Shown here: piece by piece, positions 4,481-42,491 of the stretch
Layout: each line of letters starts with the position of its first letter
Position numbering within the stretch: the first letter of the stretch is position 1
Assembly: GCA_007695355.1 (NCBI GenBank)
Contig: REDX01000254.1
Span: forward strand, 1-47,036
DNA: 47,036 bases
Source: Planctomycetota bacterium
Lineage (GTDB): Bacteria; Planctomycetota; UBA11346
Direction: 5' to 3'
Made by a program: the position numbers and the translations under genes
Notes under the pieces: model-generated
Seen by the model: the letters and a program-made list of their open reading frames with translations, nothing else
Told to the model about the DNA's origin: nothing
The model's database searches: none

Positions 4481-5764
4481 CTAGCGCTGGGCAGGGGCTT
4501 CACCCTTGGGCCTAAGGCCGGGCAGGAGGACGGTAAAGCGGGCGCCGCCAAGTTGCGGGCAGCGATCAATACTGAGGCTGCCTTCATGGAGGTTGACAAT
4601 CGAGTGAACGATGGCCAGGCCGAGGCCGGTACCGTGGTCTTTGGTGGTGAAAAAGGGCGTAAAGATTTCTTTGCGCAGACTTTCGTCTACTCCCGGCCCG
4701 GAATCGCTAATGCTGATAGAGGCCTGCTGTTGGGGGCCGTCTTCAAGCCGGACTAAAACCCGTGGTTGCGGGCTGTCGGCAGCAGCATGCAGGGCATTTT
4801 GTATCAAATTGATCAGGGCTTGGCGGATTTGGCTGCCGTCGAGGCAGCAGGTTCTGCCCTGCCATTGCGTGGTGATTTCGCAGGTCACTTGGCCGCGTAC
4901 GGCTTGAATCCGGTTGCGTTCCTCGGCGTGCTCATGCTCGCCCAGTTGCAATTCACTGTGTACCAACTCAATCACCGAATTGAGGAGTTCATCGAGGGGT
5001 ATCGGCCGCGGCTGGGGCGAACGCTGTTGGGTGAACTGGAGGAGGCTGGTGACGGTGTGATTAAGGTCGCGCACCCCTTCGACAATGGCGCGGGCATGAC
5101 GGGCGCTGCGACTTTCGCTGGGGAGGTCGCGGGCCAGCAGGGAGGCAAAGCCTTCAATCCCATTAAGTGGGTTGCGGATTTCGTGGGCGACGCCGGCGGC
5201 CATCTCGCCAAGGGAGCGCAGGCGCTCGCCACGATTGACGGTTTCCTGTAGGCGCCGCACATCGGTGACGTCGTCAAGGACTTCAACCGCACCGACAATG
5301 GAGCCACCAGGGCCAACGATGTGGGCGGTGACAACTTCGAAAATCCTTTGGCCGCCATGGGGATCGGGCAGCCGACGCTCGGCGTGCACGGCTTCCGTGC
5401 CGCCGCTAAGCAGTTCATGGATCCGGGTATCGGGAAAGAGATCGCGAAGCAGGCTGCCCTCCAGGGCGCATTGAAGGCCGACGCACATGCGTCGGGCGGC
5501 GGGATTGGCGGTGGTAATGCGGCCCTCTGGGTCAACCGCTATCACTCCGGTGGGAACCGAGGATAGCACCAGCTCCAAATATTGGCTGAGGGAGTTGAGT
5601 TCGTGAACCTTGATTGCCAATTGTTGGTTGGCGCGGGATAATTCACTTTGTTTGACGGTAAGCACTTCTTCCAGGCGCCGTGCCCGGGCCTCAAGTGCTC
5701 GCACGGTCTCATCGAAGAGGCGCAGGGCGGATTCGAAATCGGGGGTTCCCTGGGCCTCAGCCAT
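4481..5764 (-). CDS. PAS-domain sensor histidine kinase (NtrB/AtoS-like)
   Basis: MAAGVAHEIRNPLNGIEGFASLL H-box, N box (LINLIQNALHAA), DSGPGV, GTGLGLAIVHSIV; start MAEAQGT chosen inside track ORF 4481..5812 to fit the upstream gene end. Confidence 0.9.
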   Translation of the reverse strand: MAEAQGTPDFESALRLFDETVRALEARARRLEEVLTVKQSELSRANQQLAIKVHELNSLSQYLELVLSSVPTGVIAVDPEGRITTANPAARRMCVGLQCALEGSLLRDLFPDTRIHELLSGGTEAVHAERRLPDPHGGQRIFEVVTAHIVGPGGSIVGAVEVLDDVTDVRRLQETVNRGERLRSLGEMAAGVAHEIRNPLNGIEGFASLLARDLPSESRSARHARAIVEGVRDLNHTVTSLLQFTQQRSPQPRPIPLDELLNSVIELVHSELQLGEHEHAEERNRIQAVRGQVTCEITTQWQGRTCCLDGSQIRQALINLIQNALHAAADSPQPRVLVRLEDGPQQQASISISDSGPGVDESLRKEIFTPFFTTKDHGTGLGLAIVHSIVNLHEGSLSIDRCPQLGGARFTVLLPGLRPKGEAPAQR

Positions 5765-6143
5765 GGTGATCGATAAAGCGCGGCTGGTGGTTTGGATCAT
5801 CGCCATAAGCATGAATATTGCGCTTGTGGCGCTGTTGGTGCGAGGCCTCGGAAAGGGCTTGGGCCTGGATCCTGGCCATCTGGTTAAGGATGGCTTCGCT
5901 CAATTGCGCGCCGCGTTGCAGGCAGGTTACCACCTCTTGGGCCAGGGCTGGGCTCGCCGTGCTATCGGGGGTGGTTGGCAGCTCTTGGCGCAGGGCCTCG
6001 ATGGCATCGAGTTGCGGTTGTAAGCCCGGGGATTCCGTGAGCTTGGCAAGCATGTCGGGCGCCTGCCCTTGCAATTGTTGTAAGAGCTCTTCGAGGGCGT
6101 TGAGCCAATCCTGCCAAGGTGCAAGTGGTGGCGTCTGCTTCAT
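5757..6143 (-). CDS. Small helical protein, 128 aa, unknown (loosely FlgN/FliT chaperone-like in character, tentative)
   Basis: Start/stop overlaps on both sides within operon; helical Leu/Gln-rich sequence. Confidence 0.6.
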   Translation of the reverse strand: MKQTPPLAPWQDWLNALEELLQQLQGQAPDMLAKLTESPGLQPQLDAIEALRQELPTTPDSTASPALAQEVVTCLQRGAQLSEAILNQMARIQAQALSEASHQQRHKRNIHAYGDDPNHQPRFIDHHG

Positions 6144-6916
6144 AGCGAGGGATCTGCCCCCAGGCTTTCATGGAGGCGATTGAGGAGGGTATTGGCGCTA
6201 ATGATCAGGCTCACCGAACCGGGCCAATCGCTGACCAATCGCTCGTGGGCCCGGCGAGTAATATCGAGATGATCGCGGGATTCCTCGGGATGCGTTGCGG
6301 CAAGTCGGCTGGTCAATTCGCTGGCGAACCAAAAGATGAGGTACAGCCGCTGGGGCCGTAGGTGCTCTTCAAGGTGTTCGACGCTGATTCCTTGGCTGAC
6401 GTCAAGGCCACGTCGGAGTTTGTCGGTTGGCGCTTCCTCAAGATCTTCCAGCCAGGACTTGTAGCTGCGCGCCATTGCCAAGTGATTACTCGCGCGTAGG
6501 GCGTGGATTTGGTATTCATCGGCGACCAGAGCTGGGGTATCGAGAATATCGCGCTGCCGTTGTTGCCGTTCTTGCATCGCATTTAAGGTGGCTTCAAGTT
6601 CGCGCCAGGCGCTATTGCGATGATCGCGCTGTTCGCTGGCTTCGGGGCTTAATAGTTGTCCGGTGCGGGGCAAATCGCCGCTGGCGCGATCCATGAGGGC
6701 ACGGATGCGTTCATCCCGGGCGGCAATGGCTTGTTGGAGATTTTGCAGCAGGGCGTCTTCCGGATCAAGCTGGGCAGGCGCACGACCATCAGGGACCAAG
6801 GGCACCAGCCGCGGCAGCGGCGGCAGTCCAGGTTCAGGAATTTCGGGTTCGGCGGCGCTGAGCGGCAGCGCAGCCGATGCAAGGAGCAGGCCCAGGATTG
6901 CGCTTGTGAATTTCAT
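6140..6916 (-). CDS. Secreted helical protein of unknown function, 258 aa
   Basis: N-terminal signal peptide MKFTSAILGLLLASAALPLSAAEP; overlapping genes. Confidence 0.75.
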   Translation of the reverse strand: MKFTSAILGLLLASAALPLSAAEPEIPEPGLPPLPRLVPLVPDGRAPAQLDPEDALLQNLQQAIAARDERIRALMDRASGDLPRTGQLLSPEASEQRDHRNSAWRELEATLNAMQERQQRQRDILDTPALVADEYQIHALRASNHLAMARSYKSWLEDLEEAPTDKLRRGLDVSQGISVEHLEEHLRPQRLYLIFWFASELTSRLAATHPEESRDHLDITRRAHERLVSDWPGSVSLIISANTLLNRLHESLGADPSL

Positions 6917-9096
6917 TGGGCAGCCCGTCCATCATAGGCCTCAATGGCCTCGCGGTACATGCCGCGACGATAAAAGTAATCGCCAAGAATGCGAGCCGCA
7001 ACTTGACGATCCCGTTCGTGCGCCACTGGATCAGTTAGCACTTCGCGAAGGGCGGTGCGGGCACGGGCGTCATCGCCAATGGCAAAGGCGGCGCGGGCCA
7101 GGCCCAGACGGGCGGCTTGGGCTAAGTATTGGGGCGGATTGCTATCACGGACTCGCTGGTAGAGGGAAACCGCGCGCTCGTAATGCTCGGCCCCTGCGGC
7201 AGGATTTTGTTCGGCCATTTGGAAATGGTACTGCGCCAGATAAAAGTGGACCCGCGTTTCCACCGCCCCTGGATAGGCCCCGGCCTGAACCTGAAGATCC
7301 TCCAGCATTTCGGCAAGTTGGAACTGTACCGTCGGATCGTTCAGCAGCCGCTGATCTTCGAGGAGGCTCCACATTGCCTGAATATGCTCGCGACTGGAAT
7401 GAATCTCAGCATAGCAGCGGGCGATATTGATCAGCAGGGGCCCCTCAATGTCGGACTGCGGGAAACGTTGGCGCGCCCGCAAGAAAACATGCAGGGCACC
7501 GACATAATCCGGTTCATCCAAAAGCATTTTTACGCTGCCCAAGGCGAAGAGGGCTTGGCGATACAGATCTTGATCCACCAGCGGATCGGTACGGCGGTTA
7601 AATAAGGCTTGGCGCAAAAGCTGTAGGCGGGTAAGCGCCTCATCGAAATGGCGTTGGGCGACGCGGCGGCCGCTTTCGCCGCGATTGCGTTGTTGTCGGC
7701 CAAGGGCGATGTCGGCCTCGGCGATCATGAGGTGGATACGGTGGGAAAGGGACTCACCGGCCTCGGCGGCGTGGGCGAGAAGTTCTTCGCGGGCGGCCCG
7801 GTATTCGCCGCGATCAAAGTAGAGTTGCCCCAGTTCGAGGCGGGCCTCGGCCACCACTGCCTGGGCTTGGGCATCATTGCCGTGATAGGTGATGACATCT
7901 CGCAGGAGGCTGCTGGCCAGCTCAAGATCGGTGATGTCGCCACTTTGTGCCCGCAGGTGCTGTTGTCGGACGGCATGGGCAGCGGCCAAGCGCACGCCTG
8001 CTAGGCGGGGGTCACTGCGATCGGCTTTGTTGATGTAGTTGCGATAAATATTTGCTGCTTCGCGGTGCATGCCTAGTGCCTGCATGCTTTCAGCGACACC
8101 GATCATTGCCGAGCGCACCCAGGGCAGGGCCTCTAGGGAGGTCCGAGATCCGGTATCAAAATCGTAAATAAGGTCAGCAAAGGAGGAAATCGCACTAAAG
8201 TGCCGGGCGCGCCAGGCGCTATCATCATCGCTACCCTGGCGGCGCAAAGCCTCGGCTTGGCTGGCCTCTTGTCGGGCAATCAAATAGCGGGCCTGGGCAG
8301 CTACCACGTCTTGGCCGTCCCGCGCCGCCGAACGCAGGCTGGCAAGGGCGCGGCGCTGCAGCGCCTCCTGACTGGGAGTAAAATCCTCGTCATCGTCATC
8401 GCGGATAATGACCGCCCCCTGATTGCCGCCCTCCCGGTGCCACACCAGCCCAGTTTGCCGCAGTAAGCGGGTTAATGCCTCTTCCCAGGGCATATCCGCG
8501 ACATGCAGATCAACGATGCGGCGGGCCGGTGAGACTTGACGATCATTAATCGTGAGGCCCAGCAGGTAACCCATTTCACGGTACACTACTTCCACGCGCT
8601 CGCTGGAAATGCGGGCCGTAATGGTGGCCGGTGCGCTGCGGTTGCCAATTCGGTAGCGCTGGATAATCAGGGTATTATTGGCAAGGCGCGAGGACGACAC
8701 CGGATCACCATCGCGTACCAGTTCTTCTCGGCCGTCTGCTTGCTCGCGATCATCAACGCGGCGTTCTTCAATGCGTTGGCGATAGGCATCGCTAAAATCC
8801 CGGTCACTGCTTTCTAAAGCCCGTCGCACCCGCGCCACATCTTGACGCAGGGCCTGAAGATCGGCCGCCATGCCGGCGCGATCAATGCTGGTTTCGACGT
8901 TGTCTAAGCTGCGGGAATCGGCCTGTGGATCCTGCTCTGGCACCATCGGCCCATCGCGGAGAATCGGCGGCAAAGAGGGGATGGGGGTAATTGGGCGCGG
9001 CGTCGATTCTTCCGCTGCGTTAAGCCCGCAAGCGAAGATTAAGAGCAGGGAAAGCGTGCTGACGATGGGTGACCAGGGGCTTTGTTGCACGGTCAT
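6913..9096 (-). CDS. Secreted TPR protein with N-terminal STN/secretin-N-like segment, 727 aa
   Basis: Signal peptide; VVYREMGYLLGLTINDRQVSPARRIVDLHVADMPWEEALTRLLRQTGLVW resembles STN domains; multiple TPR-like repeats. Confidence 0.75.
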   Translation of the reverse strand: MTVQQSPWSPIVSTLSLLLIFACGLNAAEESTPRPITPIPSLPPILRDGPMVPEQDPQADSRSLDNVETSIDRAGMAADLQALRQDVARVRRALESSDRDFSDAYRQRIEERRVDDREQADGREELVRDGDPVSSSRLANNTLIIQRYRIGNRSAPATITARISSERVEVVYREMGYLLGLTINDRQVSPARRIVDLHVADMPWEEALTRLLRQTGLVWHREGGNQGAVIIRDDDDEDFTPSQEALQRRALASLRSAARDGQDVVAAQARYLIARQEASQAEALRRQGSDDDSAWRARHFSAISSFADLIYDFDTGSRTSLEALPWVRSAMIGVAESMQALGMHREAANIYRNYINKADRSDPRLAGVRLAAAHAVRQQHLRAQSGDITDLELASSLLRDVITYHGNDAQAQAVVAEARLELGQLYFDRGEYRAAREELLAHAAEAGESLSHRIHLMIAEADIALGRQQRNRGESGRRVAQRHFDEALTRLQLLRQALFNRRTDPLVDQDLYRQALFALGSVKMLLDEPDYVGALHVFLRARQRFPQSDIEGPLLINIARCYAEIHSSREHIQAMWSLLEDQRLLNDPTVQFQLAEMLEDLQVQAGAYPGAVETRVHFYLAQYHFQMAEQNPAAGAEHYERAVSLYQRVRDSNPPQYLAQAARLGLARAAFAIGDDARARTALREVLTDPVAHERDRQVAARILGDYFYRRGMYREAIEAYDGRAAQ

Positions 9097-10832
9097 GGCG
9101 TAGCCCTCCCTGGCTGTTCGCTGCCGAGGGTGGCCAGGCCGCTCTCGGCCAAGTCCAGGCGACCAAGTAAAAGATAGGCCTGTCGCAGCACGCGTTGGTG
9201 GCGCCGGGCCTGTTCTTCGTCGATGCCGCTGCCGTCGCGGCCGGCGAGATATCGATCCTCATTAGCGAGTAAAACGCCAATCACCCGTCGCGCTTTGCGG
9301 GCATCGCCAAGCTGGCTATGGGCGGTGGCCCACTCCAGATAAAAGTTTGGGTCCTCAAATAAGCCACCGTGACGATCGGCAACCGTGGCAAATTCGGTGA
9401 CCGCCAAATGGGGCTTACCTTCGGCCAAGTGGTGACGGGCCAAAATAAGGGTGACTTCGATCTCGCGATTGACATCGCGATGGCGTTGTCGAACCCGTTG
9501 CAGCATAATGACCCCGCGTTGGGCATTTTCTGGATCATTGAGCATCTCGCGGGCAATCCGCAGGTCCTCACCAAAGTCGTCGCTGGGTGTTACCACGGTA
9601 TCTCGGCTGGCGGCCAACTGGGTTGAGAGGGTATTCATTGAGGTCACTACGAAGACCATCGCTGCCGTGCACATCGCTAGCAGAAAAACGGCTGCTGCCA
9701 AAAGAAAGCGTGTACCGCGAAGTTCTTCCGAGGACATCACATTGATCGGTGGCATCATCGCGCCACCGCCGCGGGGGGCGCCATCGAAGGCATCGAGATC
9801 GCTTACCGCATCGGAGGTTTCAATGTTCTTTGCGGCCTCGTTGAGGAGCGCTTCGATATCGTTTTCCCGGCGGCCGATCATTTCGGTGATTTGCTCTGGG
9901 CTGGGGCCATTGGTGGCCTCGCTCATCTGTCGCACCAGGGCGTCGATATCCTCTTGGTTAATTAAGGCTTCGCTGTCTTCGTTGCTATCGCTGTGCTTGG
10001 TGACGAGGCTGTCGAGCTCTTCCTGGCTGAGATCGGAGTTTACCTTAGCGGTTTCAGAAAGTCGCGAGGTCTTTCCTTGGGGCTCAACACTTTCGGAAAC
10101 CGGGGCTACCGAACCGGCATCTAATTCAGCCAGTAGGGCATCGATATCATCTTGTCCAAGGGCACTTCCTTGGGGTTTCTTGGAGGCGCCAGTCGTGGCG
10201 GGTTTGGCACCATCATCGCCGTTCATTTCGGCCAGCAGGGCATCGATATCATCCTGTCCAAGGGGCCCTTCCTTGGCGGTTTCCTTGGTTTTCTTCGCCG
10301 TTTTATCGCCTTCGCCGTTCATTTCGGCCAGCAGGGCGTCGATATCATCCTGTCCGAGGGGCCCTTCTTGGGCGGTTTCCTTGGTTTTTTCTGGGTCTTT
10401 ATCTTCGCCGCCATTCATTTCGGCCAGCAGGGCGTCGATATCATCCTGTCCAAGAGGCCCTTCCTTGGGCGTCTCTTCCGCTTTTTCCGACGCTACTTCT
10501 GCTTCGCCCTCGCCGCTCATTTCCGCCAGCATGGCGTCGATGGCATCCTGTCCGAGGGGCCCTTCTGCTTCAGGTTTCTCGGTTTTCTCGGTTTTTTCTG
10601 GCGCTGCGTCTGCTTCGCCCTCGCCATTCATTTCGGCCAGCATGGCGTCAATGGCATCCTGTCCGAGGGGACCTTCTGGGCTCGGGGTGCTGCTGGGCTT
10701 CTCTGCTGGTGGCGAGGCCGGGGCTTCCTGTTGTTTAGGTTGCACCTTCGGTACCGCCGGCAGGGAGCCAGAGAGGCTTGCGAAGAGGGCGTCAATCTCT
10801 TCTTGGGTCATCGCCCGTGGTTCATCAGCCAT
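9093..10832 (-). CDS. Membrane protein with ~10 tandem FliM-N-like motifs, one TM segment and C-terminal TPR-like region, 579 aa
   Basis: Motif copies MTQEEIDALF, LGQDAIDAML(x2), LGQDDIDALL(x4), LSQEELDSLV, INQEDIDALV, RRENDIEALL; TM TRFLLAAAVFLLAMCTAAMVFVV. Confidence 0.88.
   Translation of the reverse strand: MADEPRAMTQEEIDALFASLSGSLPAVPKVQPKQQEAPASPPAEKPSSTPSPEGPLGQDAIDAMLAEMNGEGEADAAPEKTEKTEKPEAEGPLGQDAIDAMLAEMSGEGEAEVASEKAEETPKEGPLGQDDIDALLAEMNGGEDKDPEKTKETAQEGPLGQDDIDALLAEMNGEGDKTAKKTKETAKEGPLGQDDIDALLAEMNGDDGAKPATTGASKKPQGSALGQDDIDALLAELDAGSVAPVSESVEPQGKTSRLSETAKVNSDLSQEELDSLVTKHSDSNEDSEALINQEDIDALVRQMSEATNGPSPEQITEMIGRRENDIEALLNEAAKNIETSDAVSDLDAFDGAPRGGGAMMPPINVMSSEELRGTRFLLAAAVFLLAMCTAAMVFVVTSMNTLSTQLAASRDTVVTPSDDFGEDLRIAREMLNDPENAQRGVIMLQRVRQRHRDVNREIEVTLILARHHLAEGKPHLAVTEFATVADRHGGLFEDPNFYLEWATAHSQLGDARKARRVIGVLLANEDRYLAGRDGSGIDEEQARRHQRVLRQAYLLLGRLDLAESGLATLGSEQPGRATP
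9857..10808 (-). repeat. Coding tandem repeats, core ~96-bp units in the most regular copies
   Basis: Repeated TTCGGCCAGCAGGGCGTCGATATCATCCTGTCCGAGGGGCCCTTC on + strand. Confidence 0.85.
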
Positions 10833-11149
10833 TACTCATCCCCCCACAGCAGGGCCCGCTCATCCGGACCAACCCCACGCTGGGAATTGCCGGAGGTGGA
10901 CAGCGATGGTACCTGATCTAAGTGTTTATACCAGAGAATTGGCAGCTGGGCCTGGGAGAGCTGCCGTTTTAATTCGGGGTGGGCGCCAACCATGGCGCAG
11001 CCTGGATGCTCTCGCAGCCACTCATAAGCCCAGGTGCCCAGACATTCGAGTTCGCGGCAGTCGATGACTGGCGCCTCGTCCAGGGCGCAGGGCCACAGCA
11101 GCCGGCCACGCCAGACTGCAATTAAGGCAGAGTTGGACTTAGGCTTCAT
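10832..11149 (-). CDS. Small STAS-like domain protein (start MKPKSNSALIAVWRG)
   Basis: ALIAVWRGRLLWPCALDEAPVIDCRELECLGTWAYEWLREHPGCAMVGAHPELKRQL has STAS-like strand/helix pattern; TAATG overlap with 9093..10832. Confidence 0.55.
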   Translation of the reverse strand: MKPKSNSALIAVWRGRLLWPCALDEAPVIDCRELECLGTWAYEWLREHPGCAMVGAHPELKRQLSQAQLPILWYKHLDQVPSLSTSGNSQRGVGPDERALLWGDE

Positions 11150-11915
11150 GGGCGCGCTCCACCACCACGCCCTGCGGCCGCCACCAACAGCGATGGGCAA
11201 GGGCATCGATGACTTGTCGACGATCTTTCATCTGGCTGGAAAGGTCTGGCGACAGGCTTGCAGGGTCATGTTCAAAGGGTGACCAGCAGCGCCAGAGGGC
11301 GCCATCGTCGTTAATGACGAGGCGCTGGGCCAGCGACAACTGCATCAGCTCGGCGCAGATCTGCTGCAAGCGAGAGCTTTGATAGTTGGGGATAACATAT
11401 TCCAAGAAAAGAGCTTCAGCAGATGCGCTGGTCCCCCATTGGAGGTCCAGGATGTGCACCGAGCGCTCCACCAACGAACTGGCTTGGGCGCTAACCACCT
11501 GGGTTTGGGCCGATTGCATGGGCACCTGCAGCTGCTCAGGGTCTGGCCCGCAGATCACTGGGGGCGCTTCCCGATGCAGGGTGCCAATGCGCTGTATGGC
11601 CTCCTTGAGCTGCTCAAGGGCCACGGGCTTGGTGAGAAAATCAACGCAGCCGTTGCGTAAGGCAACTACCGCATCGTCGAAATTTCCATAGCCACTCATC
11701 AAAACGAAGGGAACGCCCAGTTCCAAGCAGAGATCTAGGCCACTGCCATCGGGCAGCTTGAGATCAGAGATAATTGCGTCAGGGGGTTGTTCAGCTGCAC
11801 ATTTACGGCCCTCAACCAAGGAATCGGCGGCCAAAACCCGGTGTCCCCAGCGCCGACAGGCGCGGGCCAGGGCAGAGCGAATTGCCGGTTCGTCTTCAAT
11901 GAGGAGGAGGTCCAT
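11139..11915 (-). CDS. Response regulator: REC domain plus unassigned C-terminal region, 258 aa
   Basis: MDLLLIEDEPAIRSAL, DAIISDLKLPDGSGLDLC (phospho-Asp), VLMSGYG, FLTKPV. Confidence 0.88.
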   Translation of the reverse strand: MDLLLIEDEPAIRSALARACRRWGHRVLAADSLVEGRKCAAEQPPDAIISDLKLPDGSGLDLCLELGVPFVLMSGYGNFDDAVVALRNGCVDFLTKPVALEQLKEAIQRIGTLHREAPPVICGPDPEQLQVPMQSAQTQVVSAQASSLVERSVHILDLQWGTSASAEALFLEYVIPNYQSSRLQQICAELMQLSLAQRLVINDDGALWRCWSPFEHDPASLSPDLSSQMKDRRQVIDALAHRCWWRPQGVVVERAHEA

Positions 11916-34886: not shown

Positions 34887-37800
34887 ATGTTTAAGAAACT
34901 GGTTCCAAGCATGTTGCTGGTAGCTGGCAGTCTGATGCCACTGTTCGCGGCCACCGCCGACGAGCGGGATGTGCATTTCCAAACTATTCGCGATCTCGTC
35001 GAGGCAGGGATGCGCTTGCCGGCTGAGCGTGCCATAGAGCGCTTCGCCTCAGCGAATTATCCTGATGCCAATTGGCATCACAAAGGTTTACGCTTTGCAT
35101 ACACCGATTTCTTTCGCACCGCGGCACCGGCGGCGGTGGCTGGTCCCTTGGAAGAGGAATACCAGCGCTTGCAATCTGAATTGAAAGCTGCCCTAGCGCA
35201 ACTGCCCGAGCCGGTGCGGATCCTCGTGGAGGGTGCCGGTGACGCCGATCTTCGGCGTTTCGTCAATATTATTCTCCGCGATCTCAATCCGCATGCGCCG
35301 CCGCCCCTGGTGCGTTTTACCGAAGAGCGGCAGCGTGAGTTCCAGGCTCGCCTGCAGCGCCTACTGCGCACCGCCGATACGGCCCTTAAAGCCGCCTACG
35401 ATAAAGTGAAGGCCTTTGAGCCCGAGGTCGAACGCAGTTGGGACTTCGAGCCCGATAGTCGGCAGTATCAGGAGATTTTCCAGCAGGCAGTGCTCCTGCG
35501 CTATGAATATGCCAATTTATTCTATACCACGTACAAGGCCCTGCGCGAAATCGTGCAGCGCGGCGCCCAATTTGGTTTGAGCCCATCCCTGGCCCGTGAT
35601 GTGGTAGAACCCTGGCTGCATGCCAAGCTGAAAGAGCACACCGAAGAATTTGCTAACTGGGATTGGAGCTACGCCGACGTTTACCCGCTACTCAAGCATC
35701 GCATGGCAGTGATCCTTTCAGAGGCTGTTCGACTTAATGAACGGCGCCCAGATCTGGGGACGATCAGCCATGTTACCTATGATGATGTTCGTGGATCTTT
35801 CTACTGGGTTATTGACCTTGATCTCAGCCAATTCCCTCGCCAGTTTCAAGAAGGTTTGACGATTCTTAAATATGAGGCCTGGGCCGATCTTATGTTCTGG
35901 CATTTGGCCATGGGCACCAGCCGCGCCTTGGATGAAGCGGCGAGAATTTGGGATGATTTTCGTTCGCGCTCACCCAGTCCTTTGAACCACCGCGATCAAT
36001 CCCGTCAGCAAGCGGTAGGCGCCCTACAGATTCTTGGTGCGCGTATTTTCCACGCCCGTGAGGAAATGTCGCGGGTGAATCCCCTGCTCGTTGAGTTGCA
36101 GCGTTCAAATAATTTCTTTGCTGCTAATTCTCGTTTCTGGCTCACCTATTTCCCGCAGCAGGGCGGCGGCAGCAGTGGCTGGGCGGCATTACCCACGCCT
36201 GAGGATCCCAATATTGCGTTAAGCTTGGCATCTGAGTTACGCCGCGAAGCGCGGAATTCCACCGATGTGGAAGTCGCCAATAGTATGTACATGGACGCTC
36301 TCGTGGCTTTGCGCAATGCCCTGCTGGGCTTGCCGGCTTCTTCGGATCCAGAGTTCCTCACTCTGGCCCCCCAGGTCTACCAGGCCTATGCCTTTGCCCT
36401 TTTTGATCGGGGCCTTTTATTTGAGGCAATCGTTGTCGCGGAGGAGGGTCTCAACCGTTTCCGGCCGATGTGGCAGCGGGGTCGTAATCTGGGTGGTAAC
36501 CCCTGGATCCGCGGCGAGACACTGAGCCCTGGTGGTGAATTGGTGCAGCGCCTGGCCGGTGACCTCTTCGCCTATACCCAGCGCCTGCGTTCTCGTTCGC
36601 AAACTTCGGCGGCCCGCGATGCCTATGGGCGATCCATCGATCTTTTGCGCATTTTTGATCCAGCCCGGGCGAAAGAGGGTTTGGATTGGAATGCCTTTGT
36701 CATCGCCCTGCAGCAAGGGGATTTCCGCAGCGCTGCCGAATCGCTAGAGCGCTACGAGCGCAACCAGCCCGATCAGCGGTTGCGCGTGCTTGGCGCTCGT
36801 GCTCGTATGCTCTATGCGGAGCTCAATCAGCGCCGCGATGCCAATGCGTCCCAGCAGATTCTCGATCAAACTCAGCAGCGCATGGATCAAGCCTTGACGG
36901 CCCTGCGCCGCGAAGTCGAGCCGATGATTGAGGGTGAACGCCCGATACCTGAGGGACAGGCCGGTGAGGTGCAAAACCTCTGGCGTTTCCTGACCACCGT
37001 CGAGGTGGCCACCCTCTTCCAGGCCGCCGACTATAATGCCGTTTTACGCAAACTTGACCTCGATTTCTGGCGCAATTTACAAGATGATCGCGAGCTTAAC
37101 CGCCAGCTTTTCAATTACCTGAGCGGTTCTGCCTATCGGGTGGCGGTGGCCAATACCCGCGATCAAGCCAGGCGCCAGGACCCCAATCTCATGCTGGAGC
37201 TGTGGCCCTTGTATACCAATACGGTGGCGGTGTACGAGCGCTTGGTCCAGCGCTGGCCGGAATTGGTTGAGCGTTTTCACGGTAATCGCCGCCAGATTGC
37301 TGCGCTGTTCAATGCGGTACGGGTGCAAACCAATTGGTTCCAGCAAAATGTGGATGCCAAGAGTGATGGCTTTGCTGAATTTGAAGAGGACACCTTCCGC
37401 GAAATGACGCGCGAGGCAGAACTCAACTTTGCCCGTATTTTCCCAATTGGTGATGATACCCAGGCCTCGGTGATTCTTTCTGTCGCCCTTGCCTACTGGC
37501 GTCAGGGTGACTTACGGCAGGCTGTGCCACTTTTTGAGCGCTATAAGAAAACCCTCGAGCAGGATGCTACGCTCCAAGCTTTCCGTGAAGACCCAACTCG
37601 GTTGCTTGCTCAAATGGCGGAGACCTTTTCCGCTCGCCAGGCGTTGAGGCCATTTTGGGAGCGTCGGGGGTCGCGATCGATTCCTGATCTCTTGGTCGAT
37701 GATCCGGGCCTTCGTGATATTATGTTAGATCCCAACGTGAGACAGTCTGACTGGCCTGAAGTCAAGCGTGATTTTGCCATGGCGCTAACTCGAACCAATG

Positions 37801-38435
37801 AGTTTGGTGAGCAACTACGCGCTCAGCGTGCCTTGATTTCGGATTTCGACCGAGTTTGGGCCGAGTTTGAGCGCTTTCGTGAATTGGTGCAAGGTCTCGC
37901 TTACTCGGTTCAAATTGACTCTTGGCTGGTAGATGCCTATCAGCAGTTGGGTCGTGGCCCTGAAGCGGTTGCATTGGCTCGTGAACTTTGGGATTATGAT
38001 CCTCTCAATCCTACCTTTATGGCTCTGGTTATCGAAGGAACTCTTAATACTCTGCGAAGTGGAGAAAAGCTTCCCCCTGCTGATGTCCGCAATGCCCAGG
38101 AAATTGCCGCCCGCCTCCGTAATATTGCCGGGCGCAACCCCGATCGCCGCGATCTCTACTGGGTCGCCAGTATCCAGGTGATGGAGTTGGCACACTATCT
38201 AGGTGACCCATCCCTGATTAATCGTACTCTGCAGCGGCATGTGGTGGACAACAATACGCCGCCTCCTGATTTCAGCGTGCCCATGTCCGATCCCTGGCGC
38301 GCTCGCGATGATCGCGCGGTGGAGATTGGTTCGCGCTATCTCGAGCTCTTCGATCTGCCCGGGGTGACCGTTGCCAAGCCCTATCGTATTGAAGAGCGGG
38401 ACGGCGAAGTTCTCTTTATTCGGGAGGCCAACTAA
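34887..38435 (+). CDS. Large secreted helical/TPR-like protein, 1182 aa
   Basis: Signal peptide MFKKLVPSMLLVAGSLMPLFAATADE; helical repeats; good RBS. Confidence 0.85.
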   Translation: MFKKLVPSMLLVAGSLMPLFAATADERDVHFQTIRDLVEAGMRLPAERAIERFASANYPDANWHHKGLRFAYTDFFRTAAPAAVAGPLEEEYQRLQSELKAALAQLPEPVRILVEGAGDADLRRFVNIILRDLNPHAPPPLVRFTEERQREFQARLQRLLRTADTALKAAYDKVKAFEPEVERSWDFEPDSRQYQEIFQQAVLLRYEYANLFYTTYKALREIVQRGAQFGLSPSLARDVVEPWLHAKLKEHTEEFANWDWSYADVYPLLKHRMAVILSEAVRLNERRPDLGTISHVTYDDVRGSFYWVIDLDLSQFPRQFQEGLTILKYEAWADLMFWHLAMGTSRALDEAARIWDDFRSRSPSPLNHRDQSRQQAVGALQILGARIFHAREEMSRVNPLLVELQRSNNFFAANSRFWLTYFPQQGGGSSGWAALPTPEDPNIALSLASELRREARNSTDVEVANSMYMDALVALRNALLGLPASSDPEFLTLAPQVYQAYAFALFDRGLLFEAIVVAEEGLNRFRPMWQRGRNLGGNPWIRGETLSPGGELVQRLAGDLFAYTQRLRSRSQTSAARDAYGRSIDLLRIFDPARAKEGLDWNAFVIALQQGDFRSAAESLERYERNQPDQRLRVLGARARMLYAELNQRRDANASQQILDQTQQRMDQALTALRREVEPMIEGERPIPEGQAGEVQNLWRFLTTVEVATLFQAADYNAVLRKLDLDFWRNLQDDRELNRQLFNYLSGSAYRVAVANTRDQARRQDPNLMLELWPLYTNTVAVYERLVQRWPELVERFHGNRRQIAALFNAVRVQTNWFQQNVDAKSDGFAEFEEDTFREMTREAELNFARIFPIGDDTQASVILSVALAYWRQGDLRQAVPLFERYKKTLEQDATLQAFREDPTRLLAQMAETFSARQALRPFWERRGSRSIPDLLVDDPGLRDIMLDPNVRQSDWPEVKRDFAMALTRTNEFGEQLRAQRALISDFDRVWAEFERFRELVQGLAYSVQIDSWLVDAYQQLGRGPEAVALARELWDYDPLNPTFMALVIEGTLNTLRSGEKLPPADVRNAQEIAARLRNIAGRNPDRRDLYWVASIQVMELAHYLGDPSLINRTLQRHVVDNNTPPPDFSVPMSDPWRARDDRAVEIGSRYLELFDLPGVTVAKPYRIEERDGEVLFIREAN

Positions 38436-39493
38436 TGCGAAATGTCACTTTATTTACCGCGCTGTTGTCATTCGTTTTCCTGGCAGCAGCCCAGTCCCCC
38501 GTGATTGCTGAAGACCGAGCTACGCCCGCTACGGTTTACTTGCGCAACGGCCCTCCTCAGGAGGGGGTGTTCATTATCCAAGAGGGCTTTCGCGAGGTTT
38601 CTTGGGCGCGCGATGATCGCATGACCGCCCGTACCTCCCGCCCGACGGCAGATGTGAAGCGTGTCGAATATGGACCTATTCCACCTGTAGAACGGGCCTA
38701 TCTGCGAGGTTTGGGGGCATTTAATTCCCGCAATTGGGCCAATGTGCTTGATCCAATGCAGGAGGTGACCACCTCATCTCGTTCCGCCTTTTTCCGGATT
38801 GATGCCCACCTTAAGCGGGCCCAGGCCTTGCAGCGTCTGCGCCGCTTTGACGACGCCTTGGTGGATGCCCAGGCCGTTATCAGTCGCTATGCTGAGTGGG
38901 TTCAGGTAGTTGATGCGATGGCTTTGGTCGGTGAAATTCATCTCGCTGCTGGCAATCAGGCCGAGGCGACCAATGCCTTCCGCGCCCTGCGTCAGGCAGC
39001 CAGCCGATTCGGTGGCCGTCACGGGGCGATTGCGGTTGCTCGTGGTGCTTTGGGTGAGGCCCAGATTTTAGGACAAGCGGGCAAACATGCCGAGGTGGTG
39101 CCCCTGCTGCGTAATGCGCTCGCTCAGGTGCCGGTGGCCTCAGCCGCCGATTACCATGGCCGCATTGCTGGCCAACTTGGTGATGCCCTGCTGGCCACTG
39201 GCGCCAAGGATGAAGCCAGAACCTTATTTGAGGGTTTACGCTTTGCTCCGATTTCGGCCGAGCACCGCGGTAAGGCCTTCCTGGAATTGGGCAAGATGCA
39301 CCTCGAGGCTGGGGATCGCATTGCGGCTGTGGACTCCTTGTTGGTTGCGGCCGTGCTGCGAGGGGGGTCTGATGAAGTCCGCAGTGAGGCCCGTCGTAGA
39401 GTGCGCCCCCTGTTAACCGCCCTTGGTTCTGACGAAAGCCTGGATCCTGAGACCCAGCGCGAATATCGGAGTTATGGAAGTCGTCTGCAATAG
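38435..39493 (+). CDS. Secreted TPR protein with N-terminal 'LRNGPPQEGVF' domain
   Basis: Signal peptide; TPR repeats; overlaps previous stop. Confidence 0.8.
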   Translation: MRNVTLFTALLSFVFLAAAQSPVIAEDRATPATVYLRNGPPQEGVFIIQEGFREVSWARDDRMTARTSRPTADVKRVEYGPIPPVERAYLRGLGAFNSRNWANVLDPMQEVTTSSRSAFFRIDAHLKRAQALQRLRRFDDALVDAQAVISRYAEWVQVVDAMALVGEIHLAAGNQAEATNAFRALRQAASRFGGRHGAIAVARGALGEAQILGQAGKHAEVVPLLRNALAQVPVASAADYHGRIAGQLGDALLATGAKDEARTLFEGLRFAPISAEHRGKAFLELGKMHLEAGDRIAAVDSLLVAAVLRGGSDEVRSEARRRVRPLLTALGSDESLDPETQREYRSYGSRLQ

Positions 39494-39542
39494 CGGCTTT
39501 GCTTGGATCCTCGTTTCTCTGTCTGAGTGAAAGGTTTTTGGC

Positions 39543-40733
39543 ATGTTTACCCATTCGAATTTCATCGCTACCCTTACCCTTGCTTTTGCCCTGACCCTTT
39601 GTGCCGCCTTTCTCCTGCCGGCCGCCTTAACCGCGGTAGAGCGTCGAGATCGCGTGGTGTTGCGAGGCAACTCCTTTCCAGCGATTATCGAGCGGGAAAC
39701 CCGAGAGGGTATTGAATACCGCATTACCCCCTCGCAGCCGAATGTGCAAACTCGACGTTGGAGCGAAGTGGTCGAAATCCGTTACGCCGGTATGGAGGGC
39801 GGCCTTTTTCAGGCGGGTATGAATGATATGCGCGCCGGGCGTTACGAAGAGGCCGCGACCCGTTTCAATGCCCTTGCCACCGGCGCTACTCGTGAGTGGG
39901 AGGGTGCTTATGGCTTTTACCATCTCGGCGAAGCTTGGGAGCGCGCCGGTGATTACGAGCAGGCAGCAGCTGCTTTCGCGGCCTTGGCTGGGGCCTTTCC
40001 TGAACACCGTTTTTGGCTAGATGCTCTGTATCGACGCGGCATTAACCTTGCTCACATTGGAAACCCCGAGGCGCAAACGGTAATTGATGAGTTGCTTAAT
40101 TATCGCGCGCAAAACCCCGCGGTTGGTCGCGGCCCGGAATTCCGTGCCAATGCTATTCGCGCGGTCATGCAGGCTCGCGCTGGGCAGATTAATGAAGCCC
40201 GCCGCACCGCTAATTCGGTGGCTTTGGCACCGCGAGATGGAGACACCTGGTTTCACTGGGGCAACTACTGGGCTCAATTCCTTTTCAATCAAGGCGAATT
40301 CCGCGATGCAGCCCAGCAGTTTCAGCGCATGCTAACACAGGTTGAAGACAACCCTGCTCAGCGCGCGCAGTTGAGCCTTGGTTTGGGGGTGAGTTTAGCC
40401 CGCGGTGGCGGCGATCGTTCGCAGGCGATTATGGAACTGCTGAAGCTGGATACCCTGCCCTACGGCTCGCCCGCCCAGCGCTGCGAGGCGCAATTTTGGG
40501 CCGGTCGCCTGATGCTGGCCGAAGCGAGGGAAAACAAAGATAACGAAGATGATCGTATATCCAGTTTTGCCCGCACGCAGTACCAGCGGGCCATTCTCCT
40601 CCTGCAGGCGGCGGCGGCGAGCATTAGTGATTCGCCAGCAAAAGCTGAAGCGCAAAACTTGCTTGACCAATTGCAGCCAGAGGAAAGAGGCGAAGAGGCT
40701 GAGGGTGGCGCTCCGGTCCTGGTCGAGGAGTAG
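39543..40733 (+). CDS. Secreted TPR protein with N-terminal 'VVLRGNSFPAII' domain
   Basis: Signal peptide; TPR repeats. Confidence 0.8.
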   Translation: MFTHSNFIATLTLAFALTLCAAFLLPAALTAVERRDRVVLRGNSFPAIIERETREGIEYRITPSQPNVQTRRWSEVVEIRYAGMEGGLFQAGMNDMRAGRYEEAATRFNALATGATREWEGAYGFYHLGEAWERAGDYEQAAAAFAALAGAFPEHRFWLDALYRRGINLAHIGNPEAQTVIDELLNYRAQNPAVGRGPEFRANAIRAVMQARAGQINEARRTANSVALAPRDGDTWFHWGNYWAQFLFNQGEFRDAAQQFQRMLTQVEDNPAQRAQLSLGLGVSLARGGGDRSQAIMELLKLDTLPYGSPAQRCEAQFWAGRLMLAEARENKDNEDDRISSFARTQYQRAILLLQAAAASISDSPAKAEAQNLLDQLQPEERGEEAEGGAPVLVEE

Positions 40734-40943: not shown

Positions 40944-42491
40944 TCAACTCAAGGGTGGATCTTCCGGTCGTTCAAGAACGCCAATGCCGCGGCGAACGGT
41001 AAGCTGGTATTCCACCAGCTTGCGGTCTAGGGTTACTCGGTTGATGCCAAGGCGCTTGGCGGCACGCAGTTTCACGCCGCGCTCTGCCGCCAGGGCATGA
41101 GTGATTAAGAGGCGTTCGATTTCGTTAAAGGCGCGACTAATATTAGGGCCTGCGCTGGCGGCATAGTGTTCAATCGCCTGCATGAGGTTTTCCATGTGAT
41201 CATCGGGGATCAGGCGGTCGGCAGACACCTGCAGCATGGCCCCGTCACCGGAGCTTCCGGCTATCCCTGGATGTTGGACGTAGCTGCGAATGGTGGGGGG
41301 AATCAAATCTTCGGAGAATGAACTGCCGGCAGCGAGCACCACCACCTTTTGCACGCAGTTTTCCAGCTCACGGACATTGCCCGGCCAGGGGTAAGCCTGA
41401 AGTATTTCCAGAACCTTGCGCGGCACGTGATCAACCTGCTTATAGTTCTCACGGTTGAACTTTTGCAGGAAATGGTTGATCAGGAGGGGGATGTCTTCCG
41501 GCCGGTCGCGCAGTGGCGGTAAATTCAGGCTTACCACATTGAGGCGGAAATAGAGATCCTGGCGAAAACGGCCCTGGGCAACTTCACGGCTTAGTTCGCG
41601 ATGGGTAGCGGCGATAACCCGCACATCGACGGGGATGGGGCGATGATCGCCGACGCGCGTTACCGTGCGTTCTTGGAGTACGCGCAGCAGACGCACTTGA
41701 CCTTCGGGACTCAGTTCTCCCACCTCGTCAAGGAATACGGTGCCACCGTCAGCAACTTCAAAGAGTCCCTTGCGATCGTGATCGGCCCCGGTGAAGGCGC
41801 CGCGGACATGGCCGAAAAGTTCAGATTCCAGCAGCGGGGTGGCAAGGGCGCCGGCGTTGACGGTGACCAGGGGCTTGTGGGCGCGGGTAGAGTGGGTGTG
41901 CACCAGGCGCGCCAGTAGTTCTTTCCCAGTGCCGGTTTCGCCATTGATCAAGACGGTGGCATTGGAGGGCGCGGTGCGCACGGCCGAGCGGATCACCGTT
42001 TCCAGCAATCCGGAGACGGTAATAATATCATGTTGCATAACCTGCGGCGTTAAGCTAGAGCGCAGGTAATGATTTTCCTCAGCCAGTTCGCTGGCTTCTA
42101 GTTGCAAGCGCAGACGGTCTAGGAGGTAGCGGGATAGGGCATCGACGAGGAATCCCGCAGGTTGCGGCTGATGATGGTGACTGACGAGGATGATCGCCAC
42201 AGGCACATTGCCATCACGCAATTGGCGGGCGACCACCGGCAGGCCATCGGTATTGACACTGGCGGTGGAGGGCGAGGCGAGGCTGGCGATTTCGTCGGCA
42301 TTGTCTGGGCAGCGCCCGGCCAGTACGGTTCCCGAAGGTTGCAAGTGGCCGGGGAGACAGCTGACCCATATGCCATCGATGGACTCCCAGGCCTCGACTT
42401 CGGCCCATAGGCGATCCAGGCAATGGCGAGGATTGCTGGTGGGATCGAGGAGATGGAGAATGGTGCCAACATGGGCAGTCCAGGACATCAT
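40944..42491 (-). CDS. Sigma-54 interaction domain transcriptional activator with N-terminal sensory region and Fis-type HTH
   Basis: GETGTGKELLARLVH, GAFTGAD, FLDEVGELSPEGQ, PWPGNVRELEN, AAKRLGINRVTLDRKL. Confidence 0.93.
   Translation of the reverse strand: MMSWTAHVGTILHLLDPTSNPRHCLDRLWAEVEAWESIDGIWVSCLPGHLQPSGTVLAGRCPDNADEIASLASPSTASVNTDGLPVVARQLRDGNVPVAIILVSHHHQPQPAGFLVDALSRYLLDRLRLQLEASELAEENHYLRSSLTPQVMQHDIITVSGLLETVIRSAVRTAPSNATVLINGETGTGKELLARLVHTHSTRAHKPLVTVNAGALATPLLESELFGHVRGAFTGADHDRKGLFEVADGGTVFLDEVGELSPEGQVRLLRVLQERTVTRVGDHRPIPVDVRVIAATHRELSREVAQGRFRQDLYFRLNVVSLNLPPLRDRPEDIPLLINHFLQKFNRENYKQVDHVPRKVLEILQAYPWPGNVRELENCVQKVVVLAAGSSFSEDLIPPTIRSYVQHPGIAGSSGDGAMLQVSADRLIPDDHMENLMQAIEHYAASAGPNISRAFNEIERLLITHALAAERGVKLRAAKRLGINRVTLDRKLVEYQLTVRRGIGVLERPEDPPLS

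Follow-up and report, generated by a model that had tools for sequence, protein, structure and literature searches.

In bacterial chemotaxis the classic docking peptide is the N-terminus of FliM (FliM-N), normally present once in each FliM. The motif lies at the extreme N-terminus of the protein, follows the consensus L-x-Q-[DE]-[DE]-I-D-x-L-L and forms a short helix with a disordered linker after it. HubP/FimV proteins combine a membrane location, acidic repeats, a TPR-like part and a flagellar role, with LysM placed N-terminal to the transmembrane (TM) segment. For Caulobacter FliM, the peptide ASERILNQDEIDSLLG binds CleD by NMR, and in the ID57WA variant the two-hybrid interaction with CleA is abolished, while CleA and CleD both lose their localisation (PMC5677366). 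A related pattern, SQDQVDDLLDSL, is found in the CheY-binding peptide of CheZ (1kmi_Z), which is present in a single copy at the C-terminus. HsbR/HsbA of P. aeruginosa performs REC/STAS-type partner switching linked to FlgM (PMC5085249), and flagellar two-component regulators of the FleS/FleR type employ a PAS histidine kinase.

The locus analysed here lies in a 47,036-nucleotide contig of a Planctomycetota bacterium (the window, meaning the whole stretch of DNA analysed) and encodes a 579-residue membrane protein with an array of FliM-N-like motifs (the repeat protein). Its motifs share the FliM-N consensus, including the I-D pair and the leucines on either side, and are modelled as short helices in a disordered segment; the first lies, as in FliM, at the extreme N-terminus. 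FliM has one such motif, whereas the repeat protein has about ten, together with a membrane segment and a TPR domain, and is without the FliM middle and SpoA domains. Against the CheZ peptide, four windows of the repeat protein reached 5/10 identities and none reached 6/10. Relative to HubP/FimV, domain order (which is opposite) and topology differ, and LysM, the FimV C-terminal domain and any sequence match are absent. The surrounding operon resembles HsbR/HsbA and RssB-type systems in placing a REC protein beside a possible STAS partner in a motility context, but no kinase or phosphatase domain was recognised by sequence in the operon's receiver protein. Its PAS histidine kinase recalls FleS/FleR, as does a similar kinase with a response regulator (sigma54 type in G261, where this was scanned) beside flgB-flgC-fliE-fliF in three other genomes of the phylum (G261, G351 and G382); in contrast, the kinase of the window has no sigma54 regulator as its immediate neighbour. 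The repeat protein belongs to neither FliM, HubP/FimV nor another named family.

Organisation of the operon and the repeat protein

The features of the operon, all on the minus strand, are as follows.

11139..11915, minus: receiver protein, REC (residues 1-108) plus a conserved alpha/beta domain (PF00072 1e-18; model pLDDT 81)
10832..11149, minus: small conserved protein that resembles STAS only on reading by eye (Pfam and PDB searches without a match)
9093..10832, minus: repeat protein, 579 aa, with FliM-N-like array, one TM helix and TPR-like domain
10782..10811, minus: motif 1 of the repeat protein, MTQEEIDALF, at residue 8
10119..10673, minus: motifs 2-7, LGQDAIDAML twice and LGQDDIDALL four times (residues 56-240)
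9819..10037, minus: membrane-proximal motifs LSQEELDSLV and INQEDIDALV and the degenerate NDIEALL
9642..9704, minus: transmembrane helix, about residues 377-397 by hydropathy (helix 368-413 in the model)
9123..9575, minus: TPR-like helical domain, residues 420-570 (pLDDT mostly 82-95; TPR folds matched)
6913..9096, minus: secreted protein with STN domain and TPR repeats (PF07660 1.7e-7, TPR_6 1.2e-6)
6140..6916, minus: secreted 258-aa protein of unknown family, conserved in the operon
5757..6143, minus: 128-aa protein of unknown family, with a small ORF at the equivalent place in relatives
4481..5812, minus: soluble PAS histidine kinase (HisKA 9e-14, HATPase_c 3e-22, PAS 2.5e-11)

The gene order is thus receiver protein, STAS-like small protein, repeat protein, STN/TPR protein, 258-aa protein, 128-aa protein and PAS histidine kinase, with gene ends that adjoin or overlap. 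This order recurs in relatives, in most of which the receiver gene stands first, as the sequence-only reading had it for the window. The longest ORF of the STAS-like protein begins at 11206 and its homologues point to a start at 11149; the kinase start is probably near 5764. Assignment of 10832-11149 to STAS was not retained, as it is an eye reading with no Pfam, NCBIfam or PDB profile match, and FlgN was dropped as a candidate for the 128-aa protein, for which Pfam and NCBIfam gave no support.

The receiver protein has a canonical REC domain that keeps D51, S74 and K96, with F93 at the position of CheY Y106 (alignment, equivalence by eye). Its second domain had no sequence match, and a fold search placed LvrC and RssB on top at an overall TM-score of about 0.4, driven mainly by REC. 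In two relatives, G022 and G023, the receiver and the STAS-like protein form one ORF (L032:10477-11445 and L034:2026-2979), and this fusion indicates that the two probably act as a pair. In G001 and G002 no receiver gene was found next to the one for the repeat protein; in the latter genome (L026:8984-10915) an ECF-sigma-like ORF, identified by eye, lies just upstream of the repeat protein, and receiver and STAS-like genes were not found there. Elsewhere in the window, a phage-integrase-like (tyrosine recombinase) ORF was seen by eye near the contig end (1192-2568), three consecutive large secreted repeat-rich ORFs of 1182, 352 and 396 aa, TPR-like in look, occupy 34887-40733, and 40944-42491 encodes a sigma54 activator (PF00158 1.9e-67) that has no receiver domain.

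Within the repeat protein, nine clear motifs of the general form LxQ[DE][DE]IDxLL start at residues 8, 56, 93, 127, 159, 191, 225, 268 and 291, and a degenerate tenth lies near residue 325, which bears out the roughly ten tandem copies first noticed. One array peptide reads PLGQDDIDALLAEMN. Linkers between motifs 2-7 are rich in Glu, Lys and Pro, with a motif spacing of 32-37 aa, and the gene contains DNA-level tandem repeats (96-bp unit, 3.6 copies). Residues 377-397 form the strongest hydrophobic segment and the single predicted TM helix. In an AlphaFold model made using eight relatives, a long helix (368-413) spans this segment, helices follow at 420-570, and the array appears as ten short helices of low to moderate confidence with disordered linkers between them; the originally described succession of array, one TM helix and TPR-like part is therefore upheld. 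The array is predicted to be cytosolic and the TPR-like domain periplasmic. Pfam recognised no domain within the array (weak GemA and PhyR matches were discarded) and gave TPR_19 at E 1e-3, below cut-off, for the TPR domain. PDB sequence searches returned no match, whether the query was a single repeat or the full protein, and the FliM middle domain (PF02154) and SpoA domain (PF01052) had no match in the protein.

Likeness of the array to FliM N-termini

The motifs were compared with FliM N-termini from three sources, and scores were set against shuffled sequence. Against Salmonella LSQAEIDALL (confirmed in PDB chain 8umd_C), eight windows of the repeat protein had at least 6/10 identities and four had at least 7/10, compared with a mean of 0.29 windows at even 5 or more in shuffles of the same 365 residues. 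The Caulobacter ten-residue core LNQDEIDSLL gave seven windows at 6/10 or more (shuffles: mean 0.008, maximum 1). Known receiver-binding FliM peptides are thus matched at up to 7/10 positions. A matrix built from 15 FliM N-termini of the window's own class gave six hits of at least 9 (shuffles: mean 0.09, maximum 2), and among 1130 ORFs from the same loci only members of the repeat-protein family had two or more matrix hits. Exact DNA matches to Q-[DE]-[DE]-I-D-A numbered six in the host genome, all inside the repeat gene. In an HMM comparison of the kind proposed earlier, the NCBIfam FliM model NF005194 touches one repeat, through model positions 3-36, at E 0.016, far below cut-off. Single QxxIDA matches in genomes without FliM were set aside, as those whose context was read lie in unrelated proteins; FliN was likewise dismissed as a second carrier, the two FliN N-termini read (G015 and G011) being without the motif. 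Literature searches on FliM-like repeats or arrays found nothing relevant in the library covered.

The array copies are related by duplication, so these match counts are not independent, and the stronger argument is the retention of the repeated motif in divergent relatives. When 106 family motifs were anchored only on positions 1, 3, 4, 9 and 10, without reference to positions 6-7, the I-D pair was present in 99. Linkers vary in length and letters while the motif is kept, and between the window's six central copies 39 codon differences are synonymous and 21 non-synonymous. All 16 sequences compared could be aligned over the membrane-proximal I-x-Q-x-DID-x-L motif (INQEDIDALV-type) and over the TM-TPR part. 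Array size across relatives ranges from about 2 (G001) through 6 (G002) and ten in the window to 14 (G009); the largest array (L038:1-1612, G009:C322) lies on a truncated contig, at its end, in a genome that is 72% complete and in which FliM was not found. An unrelated 972-aa protein of G015 (L163:5682-8600, G015:C31) has about seven FliM-N-like motifs (LSQEDIDAMI, LDQNAIDALL, LDQAAIDALL and others) and no Pfam match, and several further genomes of the class contain a stretch like its C-terminal 60 residues.

The array motif LGQDDIDALL is closer to proteobacterial FliM than to the FliM of its own class (ILSAEELDALL). It may therefore not bind the same CheY, and the difference leaves room for a dedicated partner.

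Distribution and flagellar neighbours

A TM-TPR profile search confined full-length relatives to the class to which the window belongs, represented in the collection searched by a single family of 24 genomes; none was found among 375 other Planctomycetota, and weak TPR-only matches elsewhere in the phylum (e.g. G055, G173 and G217) were discarded as generic TPR. The repeat protein was found in 17 of the 24 genomes and FliM in 18, with both in 16, the repeat protein only in one, FliM only in two and neither in five (Fisher p=0.0027, an optimistic value given that the genomes are related, incomplete MAGs). The three exceptions to co-occurrence (G009, G005 and G021) are MAGs 68-72% complete. CheZ was not found above cut-off in the class.

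The statement in the sequence-only reading that no flagellar gene is recognisable holds for the 47-kb window, but the host genome encodes FliM, FliN, FliL, MotB and three CheA-type kinases, and flagellar genes adjoin the operon in relatives. The flagellar link was invisible to that reading because the contig is without those genes. The suggested genome survey returned arrays of varied size and, as neighbours, motAB, fliW-csrA and flgG-flgA: motA and motB follow the operon in G006, fliW and csrA lie upstream of it in G019 and G016, and in G019 flgA and flgG lie no more than about 10 kb away. In several relatives (G015 and G011) the genes seen nearby were not flagellar.

In G261, G351 and G382, which represent other families of the phylum, the counterpart is a TM-TPR protein of 242-267 aa without an array. 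After it come a secreted TPR protein, a smaller TPR-like protein, a PAS histidine kinase that matches the class profile at E about 1e-74, and a response regulator, which in G261, where it was scanned, is of sigma54 type. This set stands directly upstream of flgB, flgC, fliE and fliF; Pfam was run on the G261 locus and, for FliF, on G351. TPR similarity of these array-less proteins is weak (E 5e-8 to 5e-7), so shared gene order carries the argument, and they were kept as counterparts because that order agrees. The repeat protein family thus occurs with flagellar genes and, in relatives, is encoded beside them.

Candidate function of the array

The repeat protein is probably an unrecognised flagellar accessory and not part of a non-flagellar system. 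With about even confidence, we propose a flagellum-associated inner-membrane scaffold with roughly ten FliM-N-type docks for phosphorylated CheY-like receivers. The TPR domain would sit on the periplasmic side, probably partnered by the neighbouring secreted STN/TPR protein, and the disordered cytosolic arm would present about ten FliM-N-type helices, each binding the alpha4-beta5-alpha5 face of an activated CheY-like receiver. Receiver binding by the arm is the most economical explanation since known examples of this motif class bind activated receivers. With several receivers held at the membrane close to the motor, such an arm may store, compete for or concentrate phospho-receivers locally, and may thereby adjust either the switching of the motor or signalling by the operon itself. 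We infer the chemotaxis CheY as the favoured partner and the operon's receiver protein as the second. That the protein is a membrane-anchored multivalent trap, in which FliM-N copy number determines the amount of active receiver kept or diverted next to the motor, is plausible at somewhat less than even confidence.

An array dedicated to the operon's own receiver protein (11139-11915), which together with the STAS-like partner would control flagellar gene expression without the chemotaxis CheY, is credible but unlikely. The receiver gene leads a tightly coupled operon in most relatives, is fused to the STAS-like gene in two of them and shares the operon with a soluble histidine kinase at its end, and HsbR/HsbA offers a precedent for such switching (PMC5085249). 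Against this, G001 and G002 keep the repeat protein where an adjoining receiver gene was not found, and the STAS identity is by eye, profile searches being negative.

We regard as improbable that the protein is a polar or motor landmark like HubP/FimV, whose acidic repeats recruit several proteins and whose FliM-N likeness serves the C-ring or another non-receiver partner. Acidic repeats, one TM helix and a TPR part speak for such an architecture, but the domain order is opposite to that of HubP/FimV, with its LysM N-terminal to the membrane segment, the repeat protein has no FimV or LysM match, and the exact FliM-N consensus would be left unexplained. HubP is described as a membrane polar organiser with cytosolic repeats (PMC8789113).

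The proposal first made for this DNA was a multivalent dock in a non-flagellar envelope system that reuses C-ring logic. Both the resemblance to FliM-N and the notion of a putative multivalent receiver dock survived every sequence test applied; the non-flagellar part is contradicted, and was rejected on FliM co-occurrence and gene neighbours. Secreted STN and TPR proteins in the operon, non-flagellar neighbours in some genomes and G009, where FliM was not found in a 72% complete assembly containing the repeat protein, lend a non-flagellar system some support, but five of the six genomes without a detected FliM also are without the repeat protein and relatives place flagellar genes beside the operon, making it very improbable. 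A passive, drifting linker without a partner, as the variable copy number (about 2 to 14) and low-complexity linkers might suggest, is hardly credible, as the motif is kept while linkers diverge and each copy is a predicted helix.

These results correct the impression that the array stands outside the flagellar world. As a flagellar accessory the repeat protein would be of a new type, in which a known recognition motif is found in a lineage-specific, flagellum-linked protein. If the proposed function is true, an unrecognised flagellar component with up to fourteen FliM-N on one membrane protein would be added for Planctomycetota, and the differences in copy number from species to species would offer a natural experiment on the control of a motor by the local concentration of phospho-receivers.
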